A DNA stretch of 64,000 nt from Thermomonas sp. HDW16 (GTDB lineage Bacteria > Pseudomonadota > Gammaproteobacteria > Xanthomonadales > Xanthomonadaceae), in the NCBI RefSeq assembly GCF_011302915.1, contig NZ_CP049872.1:372001-436000 (forward strand). The letters are read 5' to 3'. Made by a program: the position numbers and the translations under genes. The notes beneath the pieces were generated by a model, which did no database searches, was not told the origin of the DNA, and saw only the letters and a program-made list of their open reading frames with translations. Below, in pieces: positions 708-55,380 of this stretch. The first letter of the stretch is position 1, and every line of letters begins with the position of its first letter.

Positions 708-2369
708 TTACTTGGTGATGTCCACGTCTTTGGTCTCGCGCAGGAACAGTGAGCCGATCACGAAGGTCATCAGCGCGATGATCACCGGGTACCACAGTCC
801 CTGGTACATATTGCCGGTGGCCGCGACCAGGCCAAACGAGATGGTGGGCAGGAAGCCGCCGAACCAGCCGTTGCCGATGTGGTACGGCAGCGACATCGAG
901 GTGTAGCGGATGCGGGTCGGGAACAGTTCCACCAGCCAGGCGGCGATGGGCCCGTAGACCATGGTCACGTAGATCACCAGGATCCACAGCAGCAGCAGGA
1001 CCATTGGCTTGTTGATGCGCGCCGGGTCCGCCTTTTCCGGATAGCCGGCCGCGGTCAACGCGCCCTTCAGTTCCTTGCCGAAGGCGTCCGACTTGGCCTT
1101 GCCCTCGTCCTTGGTCAGGCCCGCGCCTTCGAAACCAGCCACGTCGGTGCCGCCGATGCTCACCTTCGCCACCGAGCCGGCCGCTGCAGGCTGGATGGTG
1201 TACGGGATGCCGGCCTTGGCCAGCGCCGTCGCCGCGATGTCGCAGGAGTTGGTGAACACCTTCTTGCCGATCGGATCGAACATGAAGCTGCAGGTGTTCG
1301 GGTCGGCATGGATCACCGCCGGTGCATTGGTGCGCGCTTCCTCCACGCCCGGGTTGGCGAAGTGGGTGAGCCCCTTGAAGATCGGGAAGTAGGTGAGCGC
1401 GGCCAACAGGCAGCCGGCCATGATGATCTTCTTGCGGCCGATCTTGTCCGACAACCAGCCGAACACCACGAAGAACGGCGTGGCCAGCAACAGCGCGCCT
1501 GCGATCATCAGGTTGGCGGTGGTGCCATCGACCTTCAGCGTCTGGGTGAGGAAGAACAGCGAATAGAACTGGCCGCCGTACCAGACCACGGCCTGACCGG
1601 CGGTGGCGCCGAACAGTGCCAGCAGCATCAGCTTGCCGTTGCTGGAGAACAGGCTGTCGCGGAACGGGGTCTTGGCGACCTTGCCTTCGTCCTTCATCTG
1701 CTGGAACAGCGGCGATTCGCTCAATTGCATGCGGATCCACACGGACACGCCAAGCAGCGCGATCGACACCAGGAACGGGATGCGCCAGCCCCAGGCTTCG
1801 AAGGCTTCGTTGCCCAGGTACACGCGGCAGCCAAGGATCACAAGCAACGACAGGAACAGGCCGGCCGTCGCGGTGATCTGGATGAAGCTGGTGTACAGGC
1901 CGCGCTTGCCGTTCGGTGCATGCTCGGCGACATAAGTCGCCGCGCCGCCGTACTCGCCGCCCAATGCCAAGCCCTGCAACAGTCGCAGGATGATCAGGAT
2001 GACCGGCGCAGCCACGCCGATGCTGGCGTAGTTGGGCAACACGCCGACCAGAAAGGTCGACAGGCCCATGATCACGATGGTGACCAGGAAGGTGTATTTG
2101 CGGCCGATGCGGTCGCCCAGGCTGCCGAAGAAGGCCGCGCCGAACGGACGCACGAAGAAGCCGGCCGCGAACGCGAGCAGGGCGAAGATGAAGCCGGTGG
2201 TCTCGTTGACGCCGCTGAAGAACTGCTTGGCGATGATCGCGGCCAATGAGCCGTACAGGTAGAAGTCGTACCACTCGAAGACCGTGCCCAAACTGGACGC
2301 GAAGATGACCTTCTTGTGACTCTGGGTGAGCGCGCCCGAAGGCGACGCGTTGGCGGTAGTGCTGGACAT
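708..2369 (-). CDS. MFS transporter, metabolite:H+ symporter (MHS) family, with large periplasmic loop insert
   Basis: This is a 553-residue inner-membrane transporter. The start at 2369 has GGGAGG five bases upstream. The N-terminal FEWYDFYLYG segment and the GDRIGRK and SDKIGRKK loop motifs identify the MHS (ProP/ShiA/KgtP-like) branch of the major facilitator superfamily, which imports organic acids, osmolytes or aromatic acids with protons. Family members usually have about 430-450 residues. The extra length here is a roughly 100-residue insert between predicted TM9 and TM10, on the periplasmic side, containing two cysteines about 17 residues apart. The gene follows a DcaP-like porin by 11 bases, so the pair probably moves one solute across both membranes. 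Being next to divergent acs suggests a short organic acid, but that is inference. Confidence 0.85.
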   Translation of the reverse strand: MSSTTANASPSGALTQSHKKVIFASSLGTVFEWYDFYLYGSLAAIIAKQFFSGVNETTGFIFALLAFAAGFFVRPFGAAFFGSLGDRIGRKYTFLVTIVIMGLSTFLVGVLPNYASIGVAAPVILIILRLLQGLALGGEYGGAATYVAEHAPNGKRGLYTSFIQITATAGLFLSLLVILGCRVYLGNEAFEAWGWRIPFLVSIALLGVSVWIRMQLSESPLFQQMKDEGKVAKTPFRDSLFSSNGKLMLLALFGATAGQAVVWYGGQFYSLFFLTQTLKVDGTTANLMIAGALLLATPFFVVFGWLSDKIGRKKIIMAGCLLAALTYFPIFKGLTHFANPGVEEARTNAPAVIHADPNTCSFMFDPIGKKVFTNSCDIAATALAKAGIPYTIQPAAAGSVAKVSIGGTDVAGFEGAGLTKDEGKAKSDAFGKELKGALTAAGYPEKADPARINKPMVLLLLWILVIYVTMVYGPIAAWLVELFPTRIRYTSMSLPYHIGNGWFGGFLPTISFGLVAATGNMYQGLWYPVIIALMTFVIGSLFLRETKDVDITK

Positions 2370-2380
2370 GGACGCCTCCC

Positions 2381-3748
2381 TTAGAAGCTGTACTTGACGG
2401 TGGTATGGATGCGGCGCAGGTCGCCGTCGGCGCCGCTTTCGAGCTCGCGGTTGCCGAAGATGAGTTCCGCGCCGATGTCGAGTTTCGGGAACGGGCTGTA
2501 GATCAGGTTGGCGTGGATCGACTGCGCGGACTTGGTCACGCCGAAGCCGGTCCAGTCGGTGTCGTTGTCGAACTGCGCGCGCGAGAACATCAGGTTGCCG
2601 CGCAGTTTCGGATCGAACACATGTCGCCAGGCCACGAAGCCGGCGAGCACGCCGGTCGATTCGATGTCGCCGCTGGTCGCATCCAGCGTGCCGTCCGCGC
2701 CCAACGCGAAACCGACGTAACGGCCGATGCCACTGCCGCCGGTGAGCATGTAGCGGATGTCGTCGGTCTTCGACACGTTGTACTTGCCGGACACGCTGGC
2801 GCCGAAGCCGGTGCTGCTGGCCTCCGTCGTCGCGGTTTCATGGCGCAGTTGCCGCGCCAGGCCGGCCACGCTGAAGTGGCCCCAATCCCCCTTCCTGGTG
2901 AAGCGCGCGGTCACGTCGGGCATGTTGCCGTCGTCGCTGGTGGTGCGTGCGGTAGTGCGATAACCGCCGACCACGGTCTGCGGATTTTCCAGCGCGACGG
3001 AGAATGCGCCGCTGGTGTAGCGCAGTTGCGCCTGGCGCACGAAGGTGGTGCCTTCGGTCGGGCCCACGAAGTCCACCGCATCCGGCAGCGCGGCCACGTC
3101 CTGGAAGTTCGACCACGTCTGGCCTGCCAGCCACTTGTCCCAGCTCACGTAAGCCTGGCGCAGGGTCACGCCATGCGTGTTGGTGGACGCCTGGTTGCCG
3201 AGGTTCGACATCCCGCCGCCGAACAGGTCGAATTCCAGGTAGGCGCGGGTCTTGTGGCCTTGCACGTCGCCATCGGCGGCGAACCAGAAGCGCGAGAACT
3301 GCGCATGGGTATCGATGTCGCCGCCGGATTCGTCGCTGCCGCCGACCGGGATCGCGCCTGGCAGATAGAACATGCGCCCGGCGCTGCCGTCGGCGATCTC
3401 GCCGTCGCTGGTATCGGTGTACATCGCATCCAGCTTGATGAAGCCGCCAAAGCTGAAACGGCCATCGGGATTACCGGCAACAAGAATGGGCGACGACTGG
3501 ATTTTCGGCTTGCCATCGACCGGTGCGGCCTGCGCCACGCGTACCTGGTCAAGCGCGGTCTGCGTTTGCGTCAGTGTCGCTTGTTGCTGCTGTTGGGCGC
3601 CGACTAGCGCCTGCACTTGCGCCTCAAGTTGCGCAATGCGCGTCTCAAGCTCCTTTTCTTTCGCGGTCTGTGCGAAGGCCATGCCCGGCAGTAACAGGGC
3701 TGCGGTGATGGCAAGCGCGAGTCGCTTGCGGGTTTTGCTTGCGTCCAT
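2381..3748 (-). CDS. DcaP-like trimeric outer-membrane porin
   Basis: 455 residues from the ATG at 3748, chosen because GGGAGGGG lies just upstream and a clean signal peptide follows (KTRKR, hydrophobic core, cleavage near MAFAQ). A frame-consistent start 19 codons further up has no such signal. After cleavage there is a short coiled coil (ELETRIAQLEAQVQALVG, then Q-rich), then a beta-barrel domain with alternating aromatic strands and the terminal residues KYSF typical of outer-membrane proteins. N-terminal coiled coil plus barrel is the DcaP/porin_10-like layout, associated with uptake of dicarboxylic acids and other negatively charged solutes. The MFS gene begins 11 bases after the stop, so the two form an operon. 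The exact substrate is not determinable. Confidence 0.85.
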   Translation of the reverse strand: MDASKTRKRLALAITAALLLPGMAFAQTAKEKELETRIAQLEAQVQALVGAQQQQQATLTQTQTALDQVRVAQAAPVDGKPKIQSSPILVAGNPDGRFSFGGFIKLDAMYTDTSDGEIADGSAGRMFYLPGAIPVGGSDESGGDIDTHAQFSRFWFAADGDVQGHKTRAYLEFDLFGGGMSNLGNQASTNTHGVTLRQAYVSWDKWLAGQTWSNFQDVAALPDAVDFVGPTEGTTFVRQAQLRYTSGAFSVALENPQTVVGGYRTTARTTSDDGNMPDVTARFTRKGDWGHFSVAGLARQLRHETATTEASSTGFGASVSGKYNVSKTDDIRYMLTGGSGIGRYVGFALGADGTLDATSGDIESTGVLAGFVAWRHVFDPKLRGNLMFSRAQFDNDTDWTGFGVTKSAQSIHANLIYSPFPKLDIGAELIFGNRELESGADGDLRRIHTTVKYSF

Positions 3749-3821
3749 CGTTCCCCTCCCAGAGGCGTCATTGGTCACGGAACCGAGCCTGCACGCCCCG
3801 CGCATGCCCGCCTATTCGCCT

Positions 3822-3852
3822 TTGGTCGCAAATGCACGTCGCTTACGACCAA
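3822..3852. promoter_or_regulatory. Inverted repeat in the divergent porin/acs intergenic region
   Basis: TTGGTCG at 3822-3828 and its exact reverse complement CGACCAA at 3846-3852 are separated by 17 bases, inside the 174-bp region between the porin start and the acs start. The arms are 24 bases centre to centre, a little over two helical turns. A dimeric regulator acting on both operons would fit; the CrbR-like protein encoded after acs is the obvious candidate, by inference. Confidence 0.4.
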
Positions 3853-3922
3853 TGTCTACACCGCCGGCCAACGCACGCGGCGCTAAACTCGGATACAGGC
3901 ATTGCATTGCAGGAATCCCGCC

Positions 3923-5869
<1,947 letters not shown>

Positions 5870-5900: not shown

Positions 5901-6569
5901 ATGCCGACGATCCTGATCGCCGACGACCATCCGCTGTTTCGCGAGGCCATGCGCCACGCGGTGGGCCGCATCCTGCCGGATGCCGTCTTGCACGAAGCCG
6001 ACAGCGCCGACGCGCTGTACGCACTGGTCGATGCGAATGCGGATGCCGACCTGCTGCTGCTCGACCTCAACATGCCCGGCGTGCAGGGTTATGGCGCGCT
6101 TGTCCACCTGCGCGGACTGCATCCGCAGTTGCCCGTGGTGGTGGTTTCCGGGCGCGAGGAGCCTGTGGTGATCCGTCGCGCGCTGGAACACGGTGCGGCG
6201 GGCTTCATTCCGAAGTCATCCGATTCGGCGACGATCGCGACCGCGCTGTCGCGCGTACTCGAGGGCGAACGCTGGATCCCGCCTGGCGTACCGACTGGTG
6301 AAGCGATCCAGCCCGAAGAACGCGACGTCGCCCGCCGCCTGGCCGAGCTCACCCCGCAGCAATTCCGCGTGCTGCAGATGCTGGCGACAGGCCAGCTCAA
6401 CAAGCAGATCGCCTACGCGCTCAATGTTTCCGAAGCCACGATCAAGGCGCACATGACCGCGATCCTGCGCAAGCTCGGTGCCAGCAATCGCACACAGGCG
6501 GTGCTGATCGCCGGCAAGCTGGCGCTTGATCCCGACAGCGTGGTGCTGCCGGACGAAGACGCCGACTAG
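5901..6569 (+). CDS. LuxR/NarL-type response regulator, CrbR-like (acetate switch)
   Basis: 222 residues starting at the ATG at 5901 (MPTILIADDH). The receiver domain occupies residues 1-115 with the acidic pair ADD near residue 8, phospho-acceptor Asp55 (LLLLDLNMPG) and conserved Lys105. A LuxR-type helix-turn-helix spans roughly residues 148-205 (LTPQQFRVLQML, LNVSEATIKAHM). In Vibrio and Pseudomonas, regulators of this type (CrbR, also ErbR/AgmR-like) pair with SLC5-domain histidine kinases (CrbS) and activate acs. Here the gene directly follows acs, and a CrbS-like kinase lies 7 kb away, though broken. The CrbR assignment rests on this context and overall resemblance. Confidence 0.8.
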   Translation: MPTILIADDHPLFREAMRHAVGRILPDAVLHEADSADALYALVDANADADLLLLDLNMPGVQGYGALVHLRGLHPQLPVVVVSGREEPVVIRRALEHGAAGFIPKSSDSATIATALSRVLEGERWIPPGVPTGEAIQPEERDVARRLAELTPQQFRVLQMLATGQLNKQIAYALNVSEATIKAHMTAILRKLGASNRTQAVLIAGKLALDPDSVVLPDEDAD

Positions 6570-6588: not shown

Positions 6589-7224
6589 TCATGGCTCGAC
6601 GTGCAGTCCGCGCAAGGCGACAGTCAGCGCTTCGTGAAGCAATTCCAGGTCCATTTTCGGATGCCGCGCCTGGCGCATCTTCAGGCCATCGAACACACTG
6701 CGCAGCACCAGCACGCGCGCCGGCAGTTGCGCTGCGGGCACGCCCAGGCCGCCTTGTTCGCGCGGGCGCGCCAGCCATGCGCCGAGCGCAACGTCGACGT
6801 GGCGATCGAGCGCATCGAACGCACTGGCGATCACCGGGTCGCGGCCGGATTCGGCGACGATCTCCAGAATCAGCGCGGGTTCCAGCATGCGCGCCGCGCC
6901 ACCTTCCTTGCCGGCGCTGTCCGCATCTTCGCGGAAGCGTTCGACGATGAAACTGGCGGCATCGCGCGCGCCCGATTGGAAGACTTGCAGGTCATCGGCC
7001 ATGAGTTCGATCTGCCTGGAGACGATGCCGTGGATCAATTCCGACTTGCCGGCGAAATAGCGGTAGATCAATCCCGCGCTCATCTGCGCGGTCTCGGCGA
7101 TCATCGCCATGCTGGCGCCATGGAAGCCGCGTTCGGTGAAGCATTTCTGCGCCGCATCCAGGATGCGGTTGCGCTGTGCCTTGGTACGGGCTTCTCGCCG
7201 GCTTTCGGTCGTGGACGGGCTCAT
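6589..7224 (-). CDS. TetR/AcrR-family transcriptional regulator of the RND operon
   Basis: 211 residues from the ATG at 7224, which overlaps the stop of the upstream outer-membrane-factor gene as ATGA. That overlap fixes the start and implies translational coupling. The N-terminal TetR helix-turn-helix is clear (RILDAAQKCFTERGFHGASM, then AQMSAGLIYRYFAGKSEL). The remaining residues are an all-helical ligand-binding/dimerisation domain. Being the last gene of an efflux operon, it most likely represses that operon until a pump substrate binds; palindromes in front of the adaptor gene are candidate operators. Placing the repressor gene last, under the pump promoter, would give negative feedback. 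The family is certain; the target is inferred from position. Confidence 0.9.
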   Translation of the reverse strand: MSPSTTESRREARTKAQRNRILDAAQKCFTERGFHGASMAMIAETAQMSAGLIYRYFAGKSELIHGIVSRQIELMADDLQVFQSGARDAASFIVERFREDADSAGKEGGAARMLEPALILEIVAESGRDPVIASAFDALDRHVDVALGAWLARPREQGGLGVPAAQLPARVLVLRSVFDGLKMRQARHPKMDLELLHEALTVALRGLHVEP

Positions 7225-8639
7225 GGCGTGGCCGTGGCGACAGTGCCATCGGCCTGCCAACCCCCGCCCATCGCGGTGTACAGCGTCACCCGGTTGGTTT
7301 GTTCGGCCAGCCGCGCCGCCACCAGTCCCTGCTGCGCGGCATAACGGGTGCGCTGTGCGTCCAGCAAGGTGAGGTAACTGTCGTAGCCGGCGTCGTAGCG
7401 GGCCTTGGACAACTGCTCCGCGCGTTCGGCTGCGGCCAGCAGACGTTCGGCTGCCGCACGCTGGTCGGCGAGGGTGCCACTGAGGCTGATCGCGTCGGCC
7501 ACTTCACGGAAGCCGGCCTGGATCGCTTTCTCGTAATTGGCCAGGGCGATGTCGCGATTGGCGGTGGCCACGCTCAGGTTCGCGCGCAAGGCGCCGCCCT
7601 GGAAGATCGGCAGGTTCACCTGTGGGACAAAGCGCCAGGCGCGGCTGCCGGCATCGAACAGACCACTGAATTCATTGCTGGCGGTGCCGGCGCTTGCGGT
7701 CAGGCTGATCGAGGGGAAGAACGCCGCGCGCGCCGCGCCGATGTTGGCATTGGCGGACAGCAGGCCGTGCTCGGCGGCGAGGATGTCGGGACGCTGCAGC
7801 AAGATGTCGGAGGGCAGGCCGGCGGGTACATCGACCAGCGCCACCAGCCCGTCTTCGAATCCCTGTGGCAAATCGTCCGCGCCTACCGGTGAGCCGGCCA
7901 GCAAGTCCAGCGCGTGGCGATCCTGCTCCACTAGGCCGCTGTAGCGGGCCACGTTGCTGCGCGCGGTTTCCACCTGGGTCTGCGCCTGCGCCAGCACCAG
8001 TCCATTGACTGCGCCGACTTCATGGCGGCGTTCGGTCAGCTTGAGCGAAGCCTGCTGTGCGGCCAGCGTGTCGCGCGAGATCGCCAGCAGGCTTTGATCG
8101 GCCGCCAGCGCCATCCATGCATTGCTGGTCTGAGCGATCAACGCGATCTGCGCGGCGCGGCGGTTTTCTTCCTGTGCGAAATACTGCTGCAGCGCGGCCT
8201 CGCTGAGGTTGCGCACGCGGCCGAACAGATCCAGTTCGAAACTGGCCATGCCCAGCGATGCGCTGTAGGTCTCGTTGACCGGTGCGTCGCCGCCGCTGCG
8301 CTCCAGGGTGGCGTTGGCACCGATCGCCGGCAGGCGTTCGGCACGCTGGATGCGGTATTGCTGGCGCACGCGTTCGACGTTCAGTACCGCGACGCGCAGG
8401 TCGCGGTTGTTGTCCAGCGCCTGCGCGACCACGCGTTCAAGACGCGGATCGACCAGCACCTCGCGCCAGCCGGCGTCGGCGGCGATCAGGCTGACGTCGG
8501 TCGCATTTGTGCGCGGTTGCGCCGACCAGGTCTCGCGCACCTGCGACTGGGCAGCGGGCGTCGGCGGCACCAGGGTGGCGCAGCCGGACGTGGCCAGCGC
8601 GGCCGCCAGCGCGATGGCAAGGCCATGCAACTTAGCCAT
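7221..8639 (-). CDS. RND efflux outer-membrane factor (NodT/OprM-type lipoprotein)
   Basis: 472 residues. The signal peptide ends in a lipobox (TSGC), so the mature protein is lipid-anchored in the outer membrane. Two repeated OEP (TolC-like) domains follow, each with long helices of the coiled-coil tunnel (for example [20 protein letters not shown] and [20 protein letters not shown]) and barrel strands. It forms the trimeric exit duct for the adjacent RND pump. The start overlaps the pump gene's stop by eight bases, and the stop overlaps the TetR start, so translation is coupled across the operon. Length and motifs match OprM/CmeC-type factors. Confidence 0.93.
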
Positions 8640-11600
8640 GGGTGGAGTCTCCTTCGACGGCGGCGGAGTCGTCCGCTTGCGTCGGCTTCTTGCGGGTGAA
8701 CAGGCGCACCACCACCAGATAGAACAGCGGGATGAAGAACACGCCCAGCGCGGTGCCGACGACCATGCCGCCGAGCACGCTGGTGCCGATCACGTTCTGC
8801 GCGCCGGAGCCGGCGCCGCTGGCGATGGCCAAGGGCAGCACGCCAAGGCCGAACGCGAGCGAGGTCATCACGATCGGGCGCAGGCGGTCGCGCACGGCCT
8901 GCATGATCGCGGGGATCAGCTTCATGCCGGCCTGCTCGTAGTTCTGCTTGGCGAACTCGATGATCAGCACTGCGTTCTTGCTGGTCAGGCCGACCGTGGT
9001 CAGCATGCCGACCTGGAAGTACACATCAAGTTCGTAGCCGCGCAGCATCGCCGCCAGCACCGCGCCCAACACGCCCAGCGGCGCGACCATCAGCACCGCG
9101 GTCGGCACGTTCCAGCTTTCATACAACGCCGCCAGCGCCAGGAACACGATCAGCAGCGACAGTGCGTACAGCAGGGTGGATTGGTTGCCGGCCTGGCGCT
9201 CCTGGTAGGACATCGCCGTCCACGCGGCGCTGTAGCCGGGCGGCAGTTCCGAGACCAGCCGTTCGATTTCGTCCATCGCATCGCCCGAGCTCACGCCTTC
9301 GGCGCCCTGGCCCTGGATTTCCATCGCGGCCACGCCGTTGTAGCGCTCCAGACGCGGTGAACCGTATTCCCAATGCCAGCTGGCGAACGAGGACACCGGC
9401 ACCATCTGTCCATTGGAGCCACGCACCGACCAGCGTTCGAAATCCTCCGGCGTCATCCGGTACGGCGCATCGGCCTGCATGTACACGCGCTTGACTCGGC
9501 CACGGTCGATGAAATCGTCGACATAGGCGCCACCCCAGGCCACCGCGAGGGTGTTGTTGATCGCCGAGACCGGCACGCCCAAGGTCTGCGCCTTGACCGG
9601 ATCCACCACCACCCGCAGCTGCGGGGTGTCGTCCTGCCCGTTCGGGCGCACATTGGCCAGCAGCGGGCTCTTGGCCGCCGCACCGAGCAACTGGTTGCGC
9701 GCGGCCACCAGCGCTTCATGGCCCTGGTTGGTGTTGTCTTGCAGGAAGAAGGTGAAGCCAGAGGAGATGCCCAGTTCCGGCATCGCTGGCGGGGCGAAGG
9801 CGAACACCATCGCGTCCTTGATCTGCGACAACGCGCCCATCGCGCGGCCGGTCATGGCAGCGACCTGCGATTCCGGCGTGGTGCGCTCATCCCAATCCTT
9901 CAGCTTGACGAAGGCCATGCCCGAGTTCTGGCCGGCACCGGCGAAGCTGAAGCCCTGCACCGAAAACACCGACTCGATCAGGTCGGACTCCTTCTCCATG
10001 AAGTAGTCCTCCAGCTTGTAGATCGACTGCAAGGTGCGTTCCTGGGTGGCACCGACCGGCGCCTGCACCATCGACATCAGCACGCCCTGGTCTTCATCCG
10101 GCAGGAACGAGCTGGGCAGGCGCATGAACAGCAGGCCCATCACCACCGCCAGCACGCCGTAGATCAGCATGAAGCGCTTTGGCCGCGCCAGCATGCCGCC
10201 CACGCCGCGCTGGTAGCGCGCGCTGCCGGCATCGAACTTGCGGTTGAACCAATCGAAGAACTTGCCGATCGGTCCGCCCATGTGCGCATGCGCCTCGCCC
10301 TTGTGCATCGGCTTGAGCATGGTCGCGCACAGCGCCGGGGTGAGCACCAGCGCGATCAGCACCGACAGACCCATGGCGATCACGATCGTGCCGGTGAACT
10401 GCTTGTAGATGATGCCGGTGGCGCCGCTCATGAAGCCCATCGGCACGAACACCGCGGCCAGCACCACGCCGATGCCGACCAGCGCGCCGGTGATCTGGTC
10501 CATCGATTTCTTGGTGGCCTCCTTCGGCGACAGGCCTTCCTCGGCCATCACGCGTTCGACGTTTTCCACCACCACGATGGCGTCGTCGACCAGCAGGCCG
10601 ATCGCCAGCACCATCGCGAACATGGTCAGCATGTTGATGGAGAAGCCCATCACGCCCAGCATCGCCACCGTGCCCAGCAGCACCACCGGCACCGCGATGG
10701 TCGGGATGATGGTGGCGCGGATGTTCTGCAGGAACAGGAACATCACCAGGAACACCAGCACCACCGCCTCCACCAGCGTGTGCAACACGCTTTCGATCGA
10801 CACCCGCACGAACGGCGTGGTGTCGAACGGCACCTTCACTTCAAGGCCGGCGGGGAAATTCGGCTTGAGCTTCTCCATCAATGCCGCCACCGCGTCGGCG
10901 GTATCCAGCGCGTTGGCACCGGTGGCCAGCGAGACCGCCACGCCGGAAGCCGGCTTGCGGTTGAAGCGACTGACCGCGTCGTAGCTCTGCGGGCCGATCT
11001 CCACCCGCGCCACGTCGCCCAGGGTCAGCTTGGAGCCGTCGGGATTGGCGCGCAGCACGATGGCGCGGAACTGTTCCGGCGTCTGCAGGCGATCCTGCGC
11101 GCTGATGGTGGCGTTCAACTGCTGGCCGGGCACCGCCGGCGCACCGCCCAACTGGCCCAGCGCGACCTGCGCGTTCTGCGCCTGCAGCGCGCCAGTGACG
11201 TCGCTGATCGCCAGGCTGTAGGTATCCAGCTTGTCCGGATCCAGCCAGATGCGCATGGCGTACTGCGCACCGAACACCTGCACCGAACCCACGCCCGGCA
11301 CGCGGCTAAGCGGATCCACGATGTTGGCGCTGACGTAGTCCGAGATGTCGTTGCGATCCATGCTGCCGTCTTCGGAAACGAAGGCCAGCACCTGCAGGAA
11401 GCCGCTCGACCCCTTGTTGACGCGCACGCCCTGGCGCTGCACTTCCTGCGGCAGCAGCGGCATCGCCGATTGCAGCTTGTTCTGCACCTGCACCTGGGCC
11501 ACGTCCGGATCGGTGCCGGTTTCGAAGGTCAGGGTGATCGAGGTAGCGCCGCTGCTGGAGCTGTTGGAGGACATGTAGATCAGGCCGTCCAGGCCGGTCA

Positions 11601-11805
11601 TCTGTTGTTCGATGATCTGGGTCACCGAGTCCTCGACCACCTTGGCCGAAGCGCCGGGATACACCGCGCCGACCGAGATCGCCGGCGGCGCCACGGTGGG
11701 GTAGCGCTCGATCGGCAGTTTGGTGATCGACAGTGCGCCTGCCAGCATCAGCAGGATCGCGACCACCCAGGCGAAGATCGGGCGATCGATGAAGAAACGT
11801 GCCAT
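8632..11805 (-). CDS. RND multidrug efflux pump, HAE1 family (AcrB/MexB-like)
   Basis: 1057 residues, matching AcrB (1049). It is an inner-membrane trimeric antiporter that expels hydrophobic drugs and toxic compounds using the proton gradient. The N-terminus [17 protein letters not shown] is the standard HAE1 start. Transmembrane helix 4 contains the paired aspartates ([18 protein letters not shown]) needed for proton relay. Two large periplasmic loops and 12 membrane segments are evident, ending with [20 protein letters not shown] and a short basic tail. The adaptor gene ends 12 bases upstream and the outer-membrane factor overlaps the 3' end, a complete tripartite operon. Substrates cannot be read from sequence. 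Confidence 0.96.
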
Positions 11806-11817
11806 GTGCCGCTCTCC

Positions 11818-13005
11818 TTATGCGCCGCTGGCAGCGGGCTTGGCGGCGGTGGATGCAGCGGGCTTGGCCTCGCTGCCGCGTTCGGTGGCCTGCACTTCGG
11901 CGCCCGGCTTGATCTTCTGCAGGCCTTCGACGATGACCTTGTCGCCGGCCTTGAGGCCGTCGTCGACCAGCCACTTGTCGCCGATGCTGCGGCTGACCTT
12001 GACCGCGCGCTGTTCCACTTTGCCGTCGGCACCGACCACCATCGCGCTGGCGTTGCCGCGCGGATCACGGGTGATGCCCTGCTGCGGGGCGAGGATCGCG
12101 TTGCGACGTTCGCCGTTGGCGACCTTGGCGCGCACGAACATGCCCGGCAGCAGCATCTGGTCCGGATTCGGCACGATCACCCGCAGCGCCACCGCACCGG
12201 TGCCGGGATCGACCATGGCTTCGGCGAAGCTCAACCGGCCCTGCTGCGGATAGACGCTGCCGTCCTCCAGCACGATGTCCACCGGCACCGCCTCGGTGCC
12301 TTGCAGGTTGCCGGCGGCGATTTCGCGGCGCAGCTGCAGCAGTTCGGTGCTGGACTGGCTGATCTCGACGTACATCGGATCCATGCTCTGGATCACCGCC
12401 AGCGGGGTGGCCTGGCTAGCCGTGACCAGCGCACCGCGGGTCACGCTGGAACGACCGATGCGGCCACTGATCGGCGCGGTGACGCGGGTGAAGCCCAGCG
12501 GCACATTGGCGCCCTGCAAGCCGGCCTGGGCCGAACGCAGGTCTGCCTGCGCTTGGCGCAACGCCGCCTGCGCGTTGTCGTTGTCCTGGCGGCTGACGGC
12601 GTCGATCTTGACCAGCTCGGCGGAGCGCTTGGCATTGAGCTGCGCGGTGACCAAGGTTGCCTGCGTGCGTGCCACGGCGGCTTGCGCGCTGTTGGCGTCG
12701 GCGCGGTAAGACGTCTGGTCCAGTTGGTACAGCGGCTGCCCGGCACGCACGCTGCCGCCCTCGGTGAACAACAGGCGTTCGACGATGCCGCCGACCTGCG
12801 GCCGCACTTCCGCTTCCTGCGAGGCTTCGGCGCGGCCGGCCAGTTCGCGGGTCAGGGTGACGGATTCGGGTTTCAGGGTGACCACGGTGACCGGGGTCGC
12901 GCCTGCCTGTCCCGGAGGAGGGGCATCGCCGCCACAGGCGGCCAGGGCGAGCGTGGAAGCGATCAGGACGGCCGGCAAGACGGCGCGCGAACGTAGGCTG
13001 GGCAT
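11818..13005 (-). CDS. RND efflux periplasmic adaptor (AcrA/MexA-like lipoprotein)
   Basis: 395 residues with a lipoprotein signal (lipobox LAAC, followed by GGD). The domains are in the usual membrane-fusion-protein order: barrel-sandwich start (VRPQVGGIVERLLFTEGGSV), alpha-hairpin with QARTQ-like heptads (about residues 95-165), lipoyl return (GFTRVTAPISGRIG), beta-barrel, and a membrane-proximal domain. It bridges the HAE1 pump and the outer-membrane factor encoded downstream. The C-terminal tail is alanine/lysine-rich low complexity. As first gene of the operon it has a 165-bp upstream region with a candidate promoter and palindromes. Confidence 0.94.
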   Translation of the reverse strand: MPSLRSRAVLPAVLIASTLALAACGGDAPPPGQAGATPVTVVTLKPESVTLTRELAGRAEASQEAEVRPQVGGIVERLLFTEGGSVRAGQPLYQLDQTSYRADANSAQAAVARTQATLVTAQLNAKRSAELVKIDAVSRQDNDNAQAALRQAQADLRSAQAGLQGANVPLGFTRVTAPISGRIGRSSVTRGALVTASQATPLAVIQSMDPMYVEISQSSTELLQLRREIAAGNLQGTEAVPVDIVLEDGSVYPQQGRLSFAEAMVDPGTGAVALRVIVPNPDQMLLPGMFVRAKVANGERRNAILAPQQGITRDPRGNASAMVVGADGKVEQRAVKVSRSIGDKWLVDDGLKAGDKVIVEGLQKIKPGAEVQATERGSEAKPAASTAAKPAASGA

Positions 13006-13170: not shown

Positions 13171-14226
13171 CTAGCGGTCGTACTGCGGCTGCGCTGCAAG
13201 GAAAGCGCGCAACGATGCCGGTTTGATCGGTTTGGTGAGTACCCGGTAACCGCGTCCACGTGCGGCGAGTTTCAGCGCATCGCTGCCGTCGCCGGTCAGC
13301 AAGGCGCCGGGTAATGCCTTGCCAGCGGCCGCGCGCAGTGCATCGAGCGCCTCCAGGCCATCCATGCGGTCGTGCAGGTGGTAATCGACAAGCAGTACTT
13401 GCGGCGCTGAGGACATCGCAGCCAATGCTTCGTCCACGGTCGCCGCGAGGGATGCGCGCACGCCCCAGCGGGCGAGCAAGGCCTGCATGCCGGCGAGGAT
13501 CTCGCGATCGTTGTCCAGGCACAGCACGTGCAGGCCATGCAGGCTGTCGTCCCGTGCGGATTGCGATTCGCGTTCCCGCGGAGCGGCCAATACGGCGTTG
13601 GCCAGCGGCACGCGGATCGCGAACACGCTGCCGCGGCCGACCTGCGACTGCACCGACAGCGGGTGTGCCAGCACGTGCGAAATGCGTTGGCAGATCGACA
13701 AGCCCAACCCCAGTCCGCGTTCGCCGCGATCGCCCGGCTGGTCGTAGCGATGGAACTCCTCGAAGATCTGCTGCAAGTGCGCGGGTGGGATGCCGGGGCC
13801 GGTATCCCACACTTCCAGCGCGATGCCATCGCCGCGCCTGCGCGCCGCCAACAGCACGCCACCGGTTTGCGTGTAGCGCAGCGCATTGCCGATGAAGTTC
13901 TGCAGGGCGCGGCGCAGCAGGCGGCGATCGCTGCGGATCGGCATGGGTCTTGGCGCATGCACGCGCAGGGCGAGACCGCGTTGCGCGGCGGTGGGCGCGT
14001 ACTGCGCGGCGAGATCGCGCAGCAAATCCGCTGCATCGAAGTCGACCACGTGCGGTTGCAGCACACCGGCGTCGAGGCGCGAAACATCCAGCAGCCCATC
14101 CAGCAATTCCTCGGCCGCGCGCAGCGAGGCATCCACGCGCGTGGCAAGCCGTGCTTGTTCGGCCGAGTTGTCGCTCTCGCGCAGTGCAGACGCGAACAGT
14201 CGCGCGGCGTTCAACGGCTGCAGCAC
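13171..14226 (-). CDS. C-terminal part of CrbS-like kinase: HATPase and receiver domains
   Basis: This is the longest independent frame after the amber codon. It opens at a GTG that is the Val of the H-box ISHDVLQPLN, so a protein made from it would lack the phospho-accepting His. The ATPase domain has the N-box (NFIGNALRYTQTGG), DTGPGIPP and GLGLGLS motifs. The C-terminal receiver has the acceptor Asp in VLLVDYHLHD, TGDGS and a conserved Lys (LTKPIKP). Everything is well preserved, which suggests the interruption is recent, an assembly or sequencing error, or suppressed. The stop at 13171 is 165 bases upstream of the RND adaptor start. Confidence 0.6.
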   Translation of the reverse strand: MLQPLNAARLFASALRESDNSAEQARLATRVDASLRAAEELLDGLLDVSRLDAGVLQPHVVDFDAADLLRDLAAQYAPTAAQRGLALRVHAPRPMPIRSDRRLLRRALQNFIGNALRYTQTGGVLLAARRRGDGIALEVWDTGPGIPPAHLQQIFEEFHRYDQPGDRGERGLGLGLSICQRISHVLAHPLSVQSQVGRGSVFAIRVPLANAVLAAPRERESQSARDDSLHGLHVLCLDNDREILAGMQALLARWGVRASLAATVDEALAAMSSAPQVLLVDYHLHDRMDGLEALDALRAAAGKALPGALLTGDGSDALKLAARGRGYRVLTKPIKPASLRAFLAAQPQYDR

Positions 14227-14304
14227 ATCGTGGCTGATCGCGGCCAGGAACCGCGTCTTGCTCTGCTGCGCGGCCTCGGCTTCGCGCGTGCGTTGCTCGA
14301 CGCG

Positions 14305-16602
14305 CTATTCAAGGGTCTCATTGACTTCGCGCAGTTCGCTTTCAACGCGCTTGTAGTCGGTGATGTCGCTGTAGCTGGTGACGTAGCCACCACCCGGCAA
14401 CGCACGGCCGAGCAATTCGATCACCTGGCCGTTGGCGCGCACGCGTTCGAACACATGCGGCGTGCCGGCGCGCAGATGTTCCAGCCGGCGTTCGACCTGC
14501 GCCTCGATTTCGCCCGCGCCCATTTCACCCCGCTCGGCATTCCAGCGCAGCAGGTCGGCGACCGGGCGACCGACGTAGAGCATCCCGTCGGGATAATCGA
14601 ACAGCTCCTGGTAGCGGCGGTTCCACGCCACCAGCCGCATCTGGGCATCGACCACGCTGACGCCCTGGCTGATGTTTTCCAGCGTGCTCGACAGCACTTC
14701 GCGATTGAAGCGCAGCTCCTGGCTGGCTTCGTCGAGCAGCGAGACCACCTCGCCCAGCTCCATGCCGGAACCACGCAGCGCCGAGGTCAGTGTCAATCGG
14801 GCAGACGCCGCGCCGATCGCCGAGGCCAGCAGGCGTTCGGTGAATTGCAGCAAGGCGCGATCCGCTGGCGCATCGGCCGCGAACGTGCGTTCGCTCTGTC
14901 GTGCGTATTCGGCGAAGGCGCGCTGTGCATGGCGTTCGCCGAGGATGCGTTCGGCCAGCGCCAGCAGCTCGCCGGCGCGCACGTTCCACGCACCACCACC
15001 GGGCACCAACGGTTGTCGCTGCGAGTAGGGGTCGAGGAAGGGGGCTGCCAGCAACTGATCCTGCAGGCGCGGGCGATAGCGCATCGACATGAACACGAAG
15101 GTGCCGATGTTGATCAGCAGCGACCAGAACACGCCATGGGTCAGCGTGTCCCAGCCTTGCATGCCGAACAGCTGGTGCGGACGCAGTACGCCGATGCCGA
15201 ACGGGCCGCTCTCGACCCAATCGGCACCCAACCAACCACCGCGCGACAACTCCGGCAACAGCAGGGTATAGGCCCACAGCAACGCACCCGCAAGCAGGCC
15301 GGCGAACGCGCCGGCACGACTGGCGCCACGCCAGTACAGGCCGCCGATCAGGGCGGGCGCGAATTGGGCGACCGCGGCGAACGCGAGCAGGCCATGCCGC
15401 GCCAAGCTGTCGCTGCCGACCGCCCCGCGGTGGTAGGCATAGGCCAGCATCGCGATGGCGGCAATGGTCGCGCGGCGCACCCACAACACCGGGCGGTCGA
15501 TCGCTTCGTCGTGGCGCAGCACGCCGCTGCGCAACAGCAGCGGCATGACGATGTCGTTGCTGACCATGGTCGACAGCGCCACGCTGGACACGATCACCAT
15601 GCCGGTCGCGGCGGAAAAACCGCCGATATAGGCGAACAGCGCCAGCGATTCGCGATCCAGCGCCAGCGGCAGTGCAAGCACATAGGTGTCCGGGGAGACG
15701 CCACTGGCAGCCAGCTGGTCGGTGCCGGCCAGGGTGATCGGCAGCACGAACAGCGAGACCAGCACCAGGTAGCCGCCGAACAACCAGCGCGCCGGTCGCA
15801 GGTCGCCGGCGTCCTGGCACTCGACCACGCCGACGTGGAACTGGCGTGGCAGGCAGAGGATCGCGGTGAAGGCGATCAAGGTTTGCGCCACGAAACTGCC
15901 GGGCAGGCCTTGTGCGCCAACGGTGGTCGCGGCCTGCAGCACGCGGTCGACGGTATCGCCCGTACCCGGCAGGTGCAGCATGGCGAACAGGCCGATGGCG
16001 ATGAAGGCCAGCAGCTTGACCAGCGATTCCAGCGCCACCGCCAGCACCATGCCGCGATGGTGTTCGGTGGCGTCGATCTGGCGCGTGCCGAACAGGATCG
16101 CGAACAACGCGAGCAGCACGGCAACGTACAGGGCGGGATCGCCCAGCGTGCCATCGGTACGGCCGGGCGCCAGCACATCCACGCTCATCGCTACCGCCTT
16201 GAACTGCAGCGCGATGTAGGGCACGGCCGCGATCACCGCAACCGCTGCCACCAACGCGGCCAGCCCGGGTGCGCGCCCGTAGCGCGAGGACAGGAAGTCG
16301 GCAATCGAGACGATGCGCTGTTCGCCGGAGATCAGCACCAGCCGCTCCAGCATCCGCCAGCCGAACAGCATCACCAGCAGCGGGCCCAGGTAGATCGGCA
16401 GGAAGGCCAGGCCATCGCGCGCCGCGGTGCCGACCGCGCCGTAGAACGTCCACGACGAGCAATACACCGCCAAGGCCAATGCATAGACCAGCGGGCGCAG
16501 TTTCGAACCCACCGGCGCGCGCTGGTCGCCCGCGTACGCCACCGCGAACAGCAGGCAGACATAGCCGGCAGAGACCAACAGCAACACCCAGCCCGGGATC
16601 AC
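14305..16602 (-). CDS. N-terminal part of CrbS-like sensor: SLC5 transporter-like domain plus PAS
   Basis: 765 residues from a GTG start at 16602 (MIPGWVLLLV). Roughly residues 1-510 are a multi-helix sodium:solute symporter (SLC5) fold, including VAVIAAVPYIALQFKAV and GFSAATGMVIVSSVALST. A helical linker region near residues 540-630 fits the STAC-type segment. A PAS domain follows (ENISQGVSVVDAQMRLVAWN through GGGYVTSYSDITDYK). Translation ends at the amber codon directly before the coiled linker to the kinase core. Without readthrough, this product would be a membrane sensor or transporter that cannot phosphorylate anything. The rpmG terminator lies upstream, so the gene has its own transcription start. 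Confidence 0.8.
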   Translation of the reverse strand: MIPGWVLLLVSAGYVCLLFAVAYAGDQRAPVGSKLRPLVYALALAVYCSSWTFYGAVGTAARDGLAFLPIYLGPLLVMLFGWRMLERLVLISGEQRIVSIADFLSSRYGRAPGLAALVAAVAVIAAVPYIALQFKAVAMSVDVLAPGRTDGTLGDPALYVAVLLALFAILFGTRQIDATEHHRGMVLAVALESLVKLLAFIAIGLFAMLHLPGTGDTVDRVLQAATTVGAQGLPGSFVAQTLIAFTAILCLPRQFHVGVVECQDAGDLRPARWLFGGYLVLVSLFVLPITLAGTDQLAASGVSPDTYVLALPLALDRESLALFAYIGGFSAATGMVIVSSVALSTMVSNDIVMPLLLRSGVLRHDEAIDRPVLWVRRATIAAIAMLAYAYHRGAVGSDSLARHGLLAFAAVAQFAPALIGGLYWRGASRAGAFAGLLAGALLWAYTLLLPELSRGGWLGADWVESGPFGIGVLRPHQLFGMQGWDTLTHGVFWSLLINIGTFVFMSMRYRPRLQDQLLAAPFLDPYSQRQPLVPGGGAWNVRAGELLALAERILGERHAQRAFAEYARQSERTFAADAPADRALLQFTERLLASAIGAASARLTLTSALRGSGMELGEVVSLLDEASQELRFNREVLSSTLENISQGVSVVDAQMRLVAWNRRYQELFDYPDGMLYVGRPVADLLRWNAERGEMGAGEIEAQVERRLEHLRAGTPHVFERVRANGQVIELLGRALPGGGYVTSYSDITDYKRVESELREVNETLE

Positions 16603-54159: not shown

Positions 54160-55380
54160 TTACTCCGTTTGTGTCGTATCACCATGGGCGGTGGTGGGAA
54201 GTTCAAGCAGGAGGTGCCCGGGCGATGCCGCCAGGAAGCGCCAACCCAGCTGCGAGGCCAGCCGCAGCGACAGCGCGCCGGCACCGCCGGCATCGCTGCA
54301 TTGTGTTGCAGTCGGCGTGTCTTGCCTGGCATGGGTCGACATGTCGAGCCTGCGACCATCGAACTGCATGCGCAACGTGTCGCCGGACGCGGGCCAGCCG
54401 AGCTTGTCGATAGCATGGCGCAGTAGCAACAGGGCTTCGCGACGTGGTAGCTGCAGCGTGCCGTCCGCAACGATCTCCACCTCCGGCCGCGAAGCTTGCG
54501 TGCGCAGGGGTTCGATGGTTTCGCGCAGGAACGTCGCGGTGTCCACGCGTTCGATCTGCAGCGGTCGTCGGCGTGCGACCACCAACAACATGTCGATGAG
54601 GCCGCTCATCTCGCGCACGCCGCGATCCAGCCGGTGCAGGCGCTCGATGCGGCGCGGATCGCTCTCCGCAGCGACATCGTCGAGCATCACCTCGGTCGCA
54701 CCCTGCACCACCGCGATCGGCGTGCGCAATTCATGGCTGGCATCGGCGAAGAAGGCTTGTTCGTGCGCGTCGGCCTCGACCAGGCGGCGCTGGTAATCGT
54801 CGATGGCGCCGGCCAGTTGCCCGAGTTCGTCGTTGCTTGCCTGCGCGCGCAGGTTCGTGACGCGCGGTTCAACCGGCATCGCGTCCACGGCTTGCGCCAA
54901 CCGACGCAGCGGCATGAGCGCGGCGCCGGCGAAATACCAGCCGAGCAGGCCGGCCAGCAGGGTACCGAACACCACCACCCCTGCCAGCATCCAGTTGAGG
55001 TGCGTTTCCAGTATTTCGATGTCGCCGAGGTTGATCACGAACCACAGGCGGCCGGCGCTGGTGTCGAACACGCCGACATGCACGCCATCTTCGGTGCCTT
55101 CCTCGTGCACGCCCGCCTCGAGCCCTGCGTATTGCGCTGGCACGTTTGTGCGGGTGTAGCCGCTCAGGCGATGGGTTTTCGGCAGTAGTGCCGGCAGGCC
55201 GTTGGCCAGGCGCAGGCCGTAGTCTTCCGCCTGGCCGCGCAGGATTTCGGTGGCGAGCACGTGCTCGTAATCTTCGGTGACCCAGGTGGCGGCGGCCGCG
55301 AACAACAGGCTCAACAGGACGCCAAGCAGTGTCAGGGCCAGCGTGACCCGGCGTCGCAGCGGCAACGGCATCGCGCTCAT
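54160..55380 (-). CDS. Two-component sensor kinase with apparently degenerate ATP-binding domain
   Basis: 406 residues. Two membrane helices (LALTLLGVLLSLLFAAAATW; LNWMLAGVVVFGTLLAGLLG) flank a periplasmic domain of about 100 residues; a HAMP-like linker and a good H-box (DASHELRTPIAVVQG) follow. In the C-terminal part, where the N-box and DxGxG motifs should be, the sequence is LLLRHAIDKLGWPASGD and STHARQDTPTAT, with only a weak remnant of the G2 box (GGAGALSLRLASQLGW). ATP binding therefore looks compromised. The start overlaps the response-regulator stop by four bases (ATGA). Which signal it detects is unknown. Confidence 0.85.
   Translation of the reverse strand: MSAMPLPLRRRVTLALTLLGVLLSLLFAAAATWVTEDYEHVLATEILRGQAEDYGLRLANGLPALLPKTHRLSGYTRTNVPAQYAGLEAGVHEEGTEDGVHVGVFDTSAGRLWFVINLGDIEILETHLNWMLAGVVVFGTLLAGLLGWYFAGAALMPLRRLAQAVDAMPVEPRVTNLRAQASNDELGQLAGAIDDYQRRLVEADAHEQAFFADASHELRTPIAVVQGATEVMLDDVAAESDPRRIERLHRLDRGVREMSGLIDMLLVVARRRPLQIERVDTATFLRETIEPLRTQASRPEVEIVADGTLQLPRREALLLLRHAIDKLGWPASGDTLRMQFDGRRLDMSTHARQDTPTATQCSDAGGAGALSLRLASQLGWRFLAASPGHLLLELPTTAHGDTTQTE

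Follow-up and report, generated by a model that had tools for sequence, protein, structure and literature searches.

The closest described systems are CrbS/CrbR (MxtR/ErdR) of Vibrio and Pseudomonas, in which the sensor carries the domain order SLC5-PAS-HisKA-HATPase-receiver in one frame and is accompanied by a LuxR-type regulator, linkage to acs and an ACTU-like site 5' of acs. All of these elements recur in the window, the whole 64,000-nucleotide stretch of Thermomonas sp. HDW16 DNA analysed here. The window differs in a TAG codon before the histidine, in a regulator that falls below the ErdR cut-off, in a DcaP-type porin and an MFS carrier divergent from acs, and in that its acetate response is a prediction.

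According to the excerpts of PMC5436829 used here, acsA fell and the acetate switch was blocked when the HisKA histidine of V. cholerae CrbS was replaced, with the authors' reservation that folding could also be affected, and deletion of the receiver did not reduce acsA. The excerpted PMC8402216 describes the system as essential for acetate use in P. putida, and in E. coli CrbR acted without CrbS by a route that was unknown (PMC5715377, in excerpt). CbrA is an SLC5-STAC histidine kinase whose SLC5 domain (PDB 10ED) is homologous to residues 7–453 of the window protein (E = 2.4e-66). Unlike the window kinase, CbrA is described without a receiver domain in the excerpted part of PMC5715377, which also states that physical coupling of SLC5 and kinase is required. 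The excerpts of PMC13022988 describe 10ED as an SLC5-STAC construct with CbrX and report that a construct of SLC5-STAC alone was well behaved on purification. The locus also resembles recent nonsense pseudogenes or null alleles, which likewise have one premature stop with all else intact; the window copy is undecayed.

The interrupted frame and its relatives

In the given sequence, an in-frame TAG splits an SLC5-PAS-histidine kinase-receiver gene (Table 1). The N part, the stop and the C part lie in a single register (765 + 1 + 377 = 1143 codons), and no second stop or frameshift was found within the frame. Sensor, PAS, HisKA, HATPase_c and receiver thus share one reading frame, yet the TAG separates sensor and PAS from the kinase. 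The N part matches SSF (PF00474; 24.3 bits against a cut-off of 22.8) and PAS_7 (148.9 bits); the C part matches HisKA, HATPase_c and Response_reg, and passes the model for the NahK/ErcS-family C-terminus (NF041832; 414.2 bits against 400). Between SLC5 and PAS no STAC match was returned, and the 10ED alignment reaches no further than residue 453; a predicted model of the best relative, P0001, has helices in this region, at low confidence (mean pLDDT 58.0, pTM 0.36). These coordinates and domains agree with the first-pass annotation, which had described a CrbS-like sensor with intact downstream motifs, interrupted between two same-register frames. It had also placed the stop immediately before the histidine, which we take to be the phosphoacceptor; the stop does precede it, but at a distance of 25 codons.

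Table 1. Features discussed in the text, numbered by the window unless a genome or locus is named
Feature	Position	Strand	Basis
crbS-like frame, 1143 codons, GTG start, one internal TAG	13171..16602	-	open-frame reading
N part, 765 codons: SLC5 transporter-like domain, linker region, PAS	14308..16602	-	SSF + PAS_7, PDB 10ED
In-frame TAG	14305..14307	-	open-frame reading; relatives Gln 113, His 2, Ala 1, Glu 1 (n = 117)
Phospho-accepting His codon (presumed), 25th after TAG	14230..14232	-	HisKA match
GTG, first ATG/GTG/TTG 3' of TAG, two codons beyond His	14224..14226	-	codon listing
C part, 377 codons with own stop: HisKA, HATPase_c, receiver	13171..14304	-	domain matches
acs, acetyl-CoA synthetase	3923..5869	+	TIGR02188, 1012 bits vs 724.95; the genome's only match over the AcsA cut-off
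crbR-like LuxR-type response regulator	5901..6569	+	best NCBIfam match ErdR, 236.9 bits, below cut-off 390
Operator-like inverted repeat 5' of acs	3822..3858	+	right half resembles ACTU motif (pattern and by eye)
DcaP-type outer membrane porin, divergent from acs	2381..3805	-	PF19577, 64.1 bits vs 27
MFS carrier after porin	708..2369	-	domain match and synteny
Second SLC5 kinase, uninterrupted, 1125 aa	genome 1814678-1816870
Second SLC5 kinase with adjoining ErdR-like regulator	G000:C1:1812924-1816870 (L150: 7888-11927)

A search with the N part, from which the best 120 of 8000 scored candidates were taken, gave 117 proteins longer than 1100 aa. The stop column is occupied by a residue in each of these 117 (Gln in 113, which agrees with the glutamine named in the first-pass annotation), so the split is not a chance juxtaposition of two frames. 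The best relative, P0001, is an uninterrupted protein of 1143 aa whose N part is 93% and whose C part is 85% identical to those of the window protein; the best-listed named matches to the N part include a fragment from a Thermomonas MAG (91%) and Pseudoluteimonas lycopersici (89%). At the level of loci, 80 of 205 on named contigs were kept, mostly from Lysobacter where the relative is named. Five of these are cut downstream by a contig end, and the other 75 reach their stop uninterrupted, with frames of at least 1146 aa (one, L082, begins at a contig edge). A survey of 296 genomes of the family, 227 of them with a match at E 1e-150, contained two interrupted crbS-like genes among the 150 places listed, one in the window genome (open frame 800), the other in G198. 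The G198 gene (L222; G198:C148:23001-27500) has one TGA in the PAS region and is a second interrupted copy in the family. A TAG at the site seen in the window was absent from all the other genomes examined (117 relatives, 75 loci, 150 places listed).

The comparison with relatives proposed earlier therefore yields no stop at this column in any of 117 proteins, and separate encoding of the two parts, which had been named as a refuting observation, occurs in none of the 117 full-length proteins or 75 loci. The shorter C-terminal records listed by a search with the C part are less uniform in this respect: five of ten inspected start within the linker, directly past the site of the window stop and before the histidine. 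Four of the five sit on contigs of 1.2–4.1 kb, and the fifth (P0219, 3.5-Mb contig) has what appears by eye to be a frame-shifted stretch; such records may come from genes cut at contig edges or from additional interrupted genes. A narrow literature search found no natural MxtR nonsense allele, which does not imply absence from print, and gave nothing relevant by title on an acetate two-component system in Thermomonas.

The acs region and a second SLC5 kinase

The regulator and acs that the first-pass annotation had placed 7 kb away were found there: both genes lie about 7 kb from the C-terminal end of the kinase at 13171. Apart from the stop, the predicted CrbS/CrbR-acs module appears intact, with acs, crbR, an ACTU-like operator, the DcaP-type porin and the MFS carrier. 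The gene order MFS carrier and DcaP-type porin (-), acs and crbR (+), crbS (-), rpmB is found again in congeners and several other Lysobacteraceae; relatives sharing it vary in gene content between crbR and crbS. In the window this interval holds a TetR-outer membrane factor-RND pump-adaptor operon (6589-13005, minus strand), whose proteins had no match above 60 bits in the other synteny loci, nor at E 1e-6 in the compared 20-kb stretches.

In raw genome counts that ignore kinship, acs is present in all 25 genomes of the genus and crbR orthologues (at least 67% identity) in 11, with a more distant paralogue in most; those 11 also have the porin, which is absent from the remaining 14. A search with the N part found crbS in 10 of the 25, two of them cut at contig edges; in the eleventh crbR-bearing genome, G008, just the C-terminal end of crbS was found, at a contig edge. 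In the 20-kb stretches of two congeners, G001 and G023, the porin, MFS carrier, crbR and crbS are unmatched, while acs and both outer flanks still align. Both of these crbR-free genomes (L152, L153) have a similar stretch directly 5' of acs, AGGAAGTCAGGG, which is perhaps the site of a different regulator.

The right half of the window's inverted repeat, TACGACCAATGTCTACA, resembles the ACTU sites given in Table 4 of PMC5715377 (in excerpt), e.g. TACGACTAAAGTCTAAA, and we regard the repeat as a candidate ACTU-type operator by pattern and by eye. In counts that again take no account of kinship, the pattern occurred once in each of nine genomes of the genus, all crbR-bearing and always 5' of acs, and the reversed pattern in none of 25; in the two crbR-bearing genomes that lack it, G020 and G022, acs is cut at the contig start. 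Over a broader sample the exact pattern is less strictly kept: among 63 stretches upstream of acs at crbR loci, some of them duplicates of one genome, the full pattern was found in 30, the right half in 47 and the left half in 43; among four such stretches without crbR, from two genomes, it was found in none. AckA, a possible supplier of acetyl phosphate to CrbR, had no match in the window genome; the search gave positives in 9 of 14 control genomes.

The genome has a second SLC5 kinase (Table 1), which was matched across the genus. Its N part is 42–48% identical to that of the window kinase, and the phosphotransfer helices of the two are similar in alignment. The adjoining regulator matches the ErdR model at 227.6 bits, below the same cut-off as the crbR-like regulator and close to the latter's score. 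This paralogous pair might soften the loss of the sensor or substitute for it. The same 20-kb stretch encodes PhaC and PhaE, the class III PHA synthase subunits. In G013 (C1:1500224-1502391) the paralogous kinase comes in two pieces, each in an open frame of its own (518 and 819 aa), perhaps through a frameshift or an assembly error. Elsewhere in the window, a 406-aa histidine kinase frame adjoining a response regulator (54160-55380, minus strand) has a HisKA match and no HATPase model at E 1e-8, and may be degenerate or divergent.

Age of the lesion and competing explanations

Residues kept in at least 98% of the 117 relatives define 536 conserved columns (379 in the N part, 157 in the C part), and the window protein departs from the conserved residue at none of them. 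From the absence of changes in 157 codons, and taking about 2.3 nonsynonymous sites per codon in our own arithmetic, the neutral divergence since the lesion is bounded at roughly 0.8% per site (95%). Relative-rate tests with five relatives and five outgroups (25 per part, uncorrected and not independent) gave no p value of 0.05 or less for the N part; for the C part 22 of 25 had p > 0.05, and the other three were 19:8, 22:10 and 26:12 (p = 0.05, 0.05 and 0.03). These three all used outgroup P0008, with more changes on the window side; the direction was mixed with the other outgroups. Pairwise dN/dS values were ordinary, with 0.12 for the N part against L213, and 0.12 and 0.25 for the C part against L085 and L213. 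Neither relaxed constraint nor further lesions were detected in the window frame by conserved columns, frame check or dN/dS. An undecayed frame means that the lesion is recent, provided that it is real.

We also considered recombination, with a junction at the stop, because the N part had seemed closer to Lysobacter-type proteins and the C part to the congener G011. The shift among informative sites falls near codon 680, some 90 codons away from the TAG, and the N and C trees disagree for the G004 and G011 kinases (one N-tree node has support 0.515). As the window protein is collinear with P0001, and as the tree conflict lies in G004 and G011 and the shift near codon 680, recombination is not tied to the lesion, and this candidate was rejected. 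The CrbS-like proteins of G004 and G011 themselves (L084, L085) look mosaic, with an N part deep in the tree and, in L085, a C part that groups with the window protein.

Our favoured reading, with a probability of about 0.65, is a null allele: a CrbS-type acetate sensor inactivated very recently by a nonsense mutation. The main rival, to which we give a clearly minor though real share, is that the stop comes from a mistake in the sequencing or the consensus, or appeared in the sequenced culture alone, the CrbS of the species being normal. The lack of decay at all conserved columns, the intact partner genes, the difference of one base and its restriction to this genome all fit such an error; against it stand the quality of the source assembly (a single contig of 2,795,589 bases, completeness 100, contamination 0.43) and our assumption, made beforehand and not a result, that, gene for gene, real nonsense alleles outnumber substitution errors. 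It is improbable that, with the kinase lost, the paralogous SLC5 kinase and its ErdR-like regulator maintain control, acting via CrbR or directly on acs. The paralogue is uninterrupted, the helices and the ErdR scores of the two systems are alike, and congeners without crbR retain acs, but the N parts are rather dissimilar and the paralogue has an adjoining regulator of its own.

The undecayed C part would also suit readthrough or suppression of the TAG, with some full-length kinase still made. However, the genome's 47 tRNA matches, typed by ARAGORN as 47 tRNAs of 43 amino acid/anticodon kinds, include no CUA anticodon, RF1 is present (477 bits against a cut-off of 423.25), TAG terminates other window genes such as crbR and xth, and no relative has a stop at this column; UAG recoding was rejected on this basis, suppression is not expected, and the chance that readthrough accounts for the locus is very slight. 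The lesion had been called recent, an error or suppressed, and it is the last of these that falls away, the undecayed frame being compatible with either of the others. Hardly credible, finally, is a division of labour between two proteins, a sensor and a soluble kinase, in spite of both halves being intact and of the C-terminal records that begin in the linker. The C part has no common start codon of its own before the histidine, and a restart at such a codon would give no kinase because the first one lies past it; moreover, the full-length relatives are single proteins, and the coupling described for CbrA (PMC5715377, in excerpt) argues against separation. The split kinase was rejected on the first two of these grounds, start codon and relatives.

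Consequences for acetate control

The nonsense mutation that we favour would have the following effects. Translation would end at the TAG, leaving a 765-residue SLC5-PAS membrane fragment without a kinase, and CrbR would then not be phosphorylated by its own sensor. The first-pass annotation went further in stating that transmembrane sensing has been uncoupled from phosphorylation; this implies a working kinase half, and is too strong because probably none is made, so that plain loss of the kinase is to be expected. The N fragment could well remain in the membrane, given the good behaviour of the purified SLC5-STAC construct of CbrA. On the premise, which we infer, that the window protein senses acetate, induction of acs by acetate, and perhaps of the divergent porin and carrier, would be lost, as the histidine replacement in V. 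cholerae and the acetate results in P. putida lead one to expect. Alternatively, acs induction would fall to the level reachable by CrbR alone or by the paralogous SLC5 kinase and regulator; given that CrbR can work in E. coli in the absence of CrbS, acs may be little affected. A more radical outcome, to which we attach little probability, is a natural kinase-less SLC5-PAS carrier made from the sensor, with the paralogous SLC5 system now driving CrbR or acs, so that control is rewired and not lost.

As 14 of 25 congeners keep acs without porin or crbR, the lesion may stand near the start of a loss that has run to completion elsewhere, and the null allele is perhaps the first step of loss of the module. 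No new mechanism is indicated and the novelty is modest. If real, the stop gives a loss-of-function allele that arose in nature, for a CrbS-type sensor whose regulator, operator-like site and target are intact. Within a genus where acs is universal and porin and crbR go together, all or none (present in 11 of 25 genomes, absent from 14), it would allow acetate control to be compared readily between the full module, the module without its sensor, and no module.
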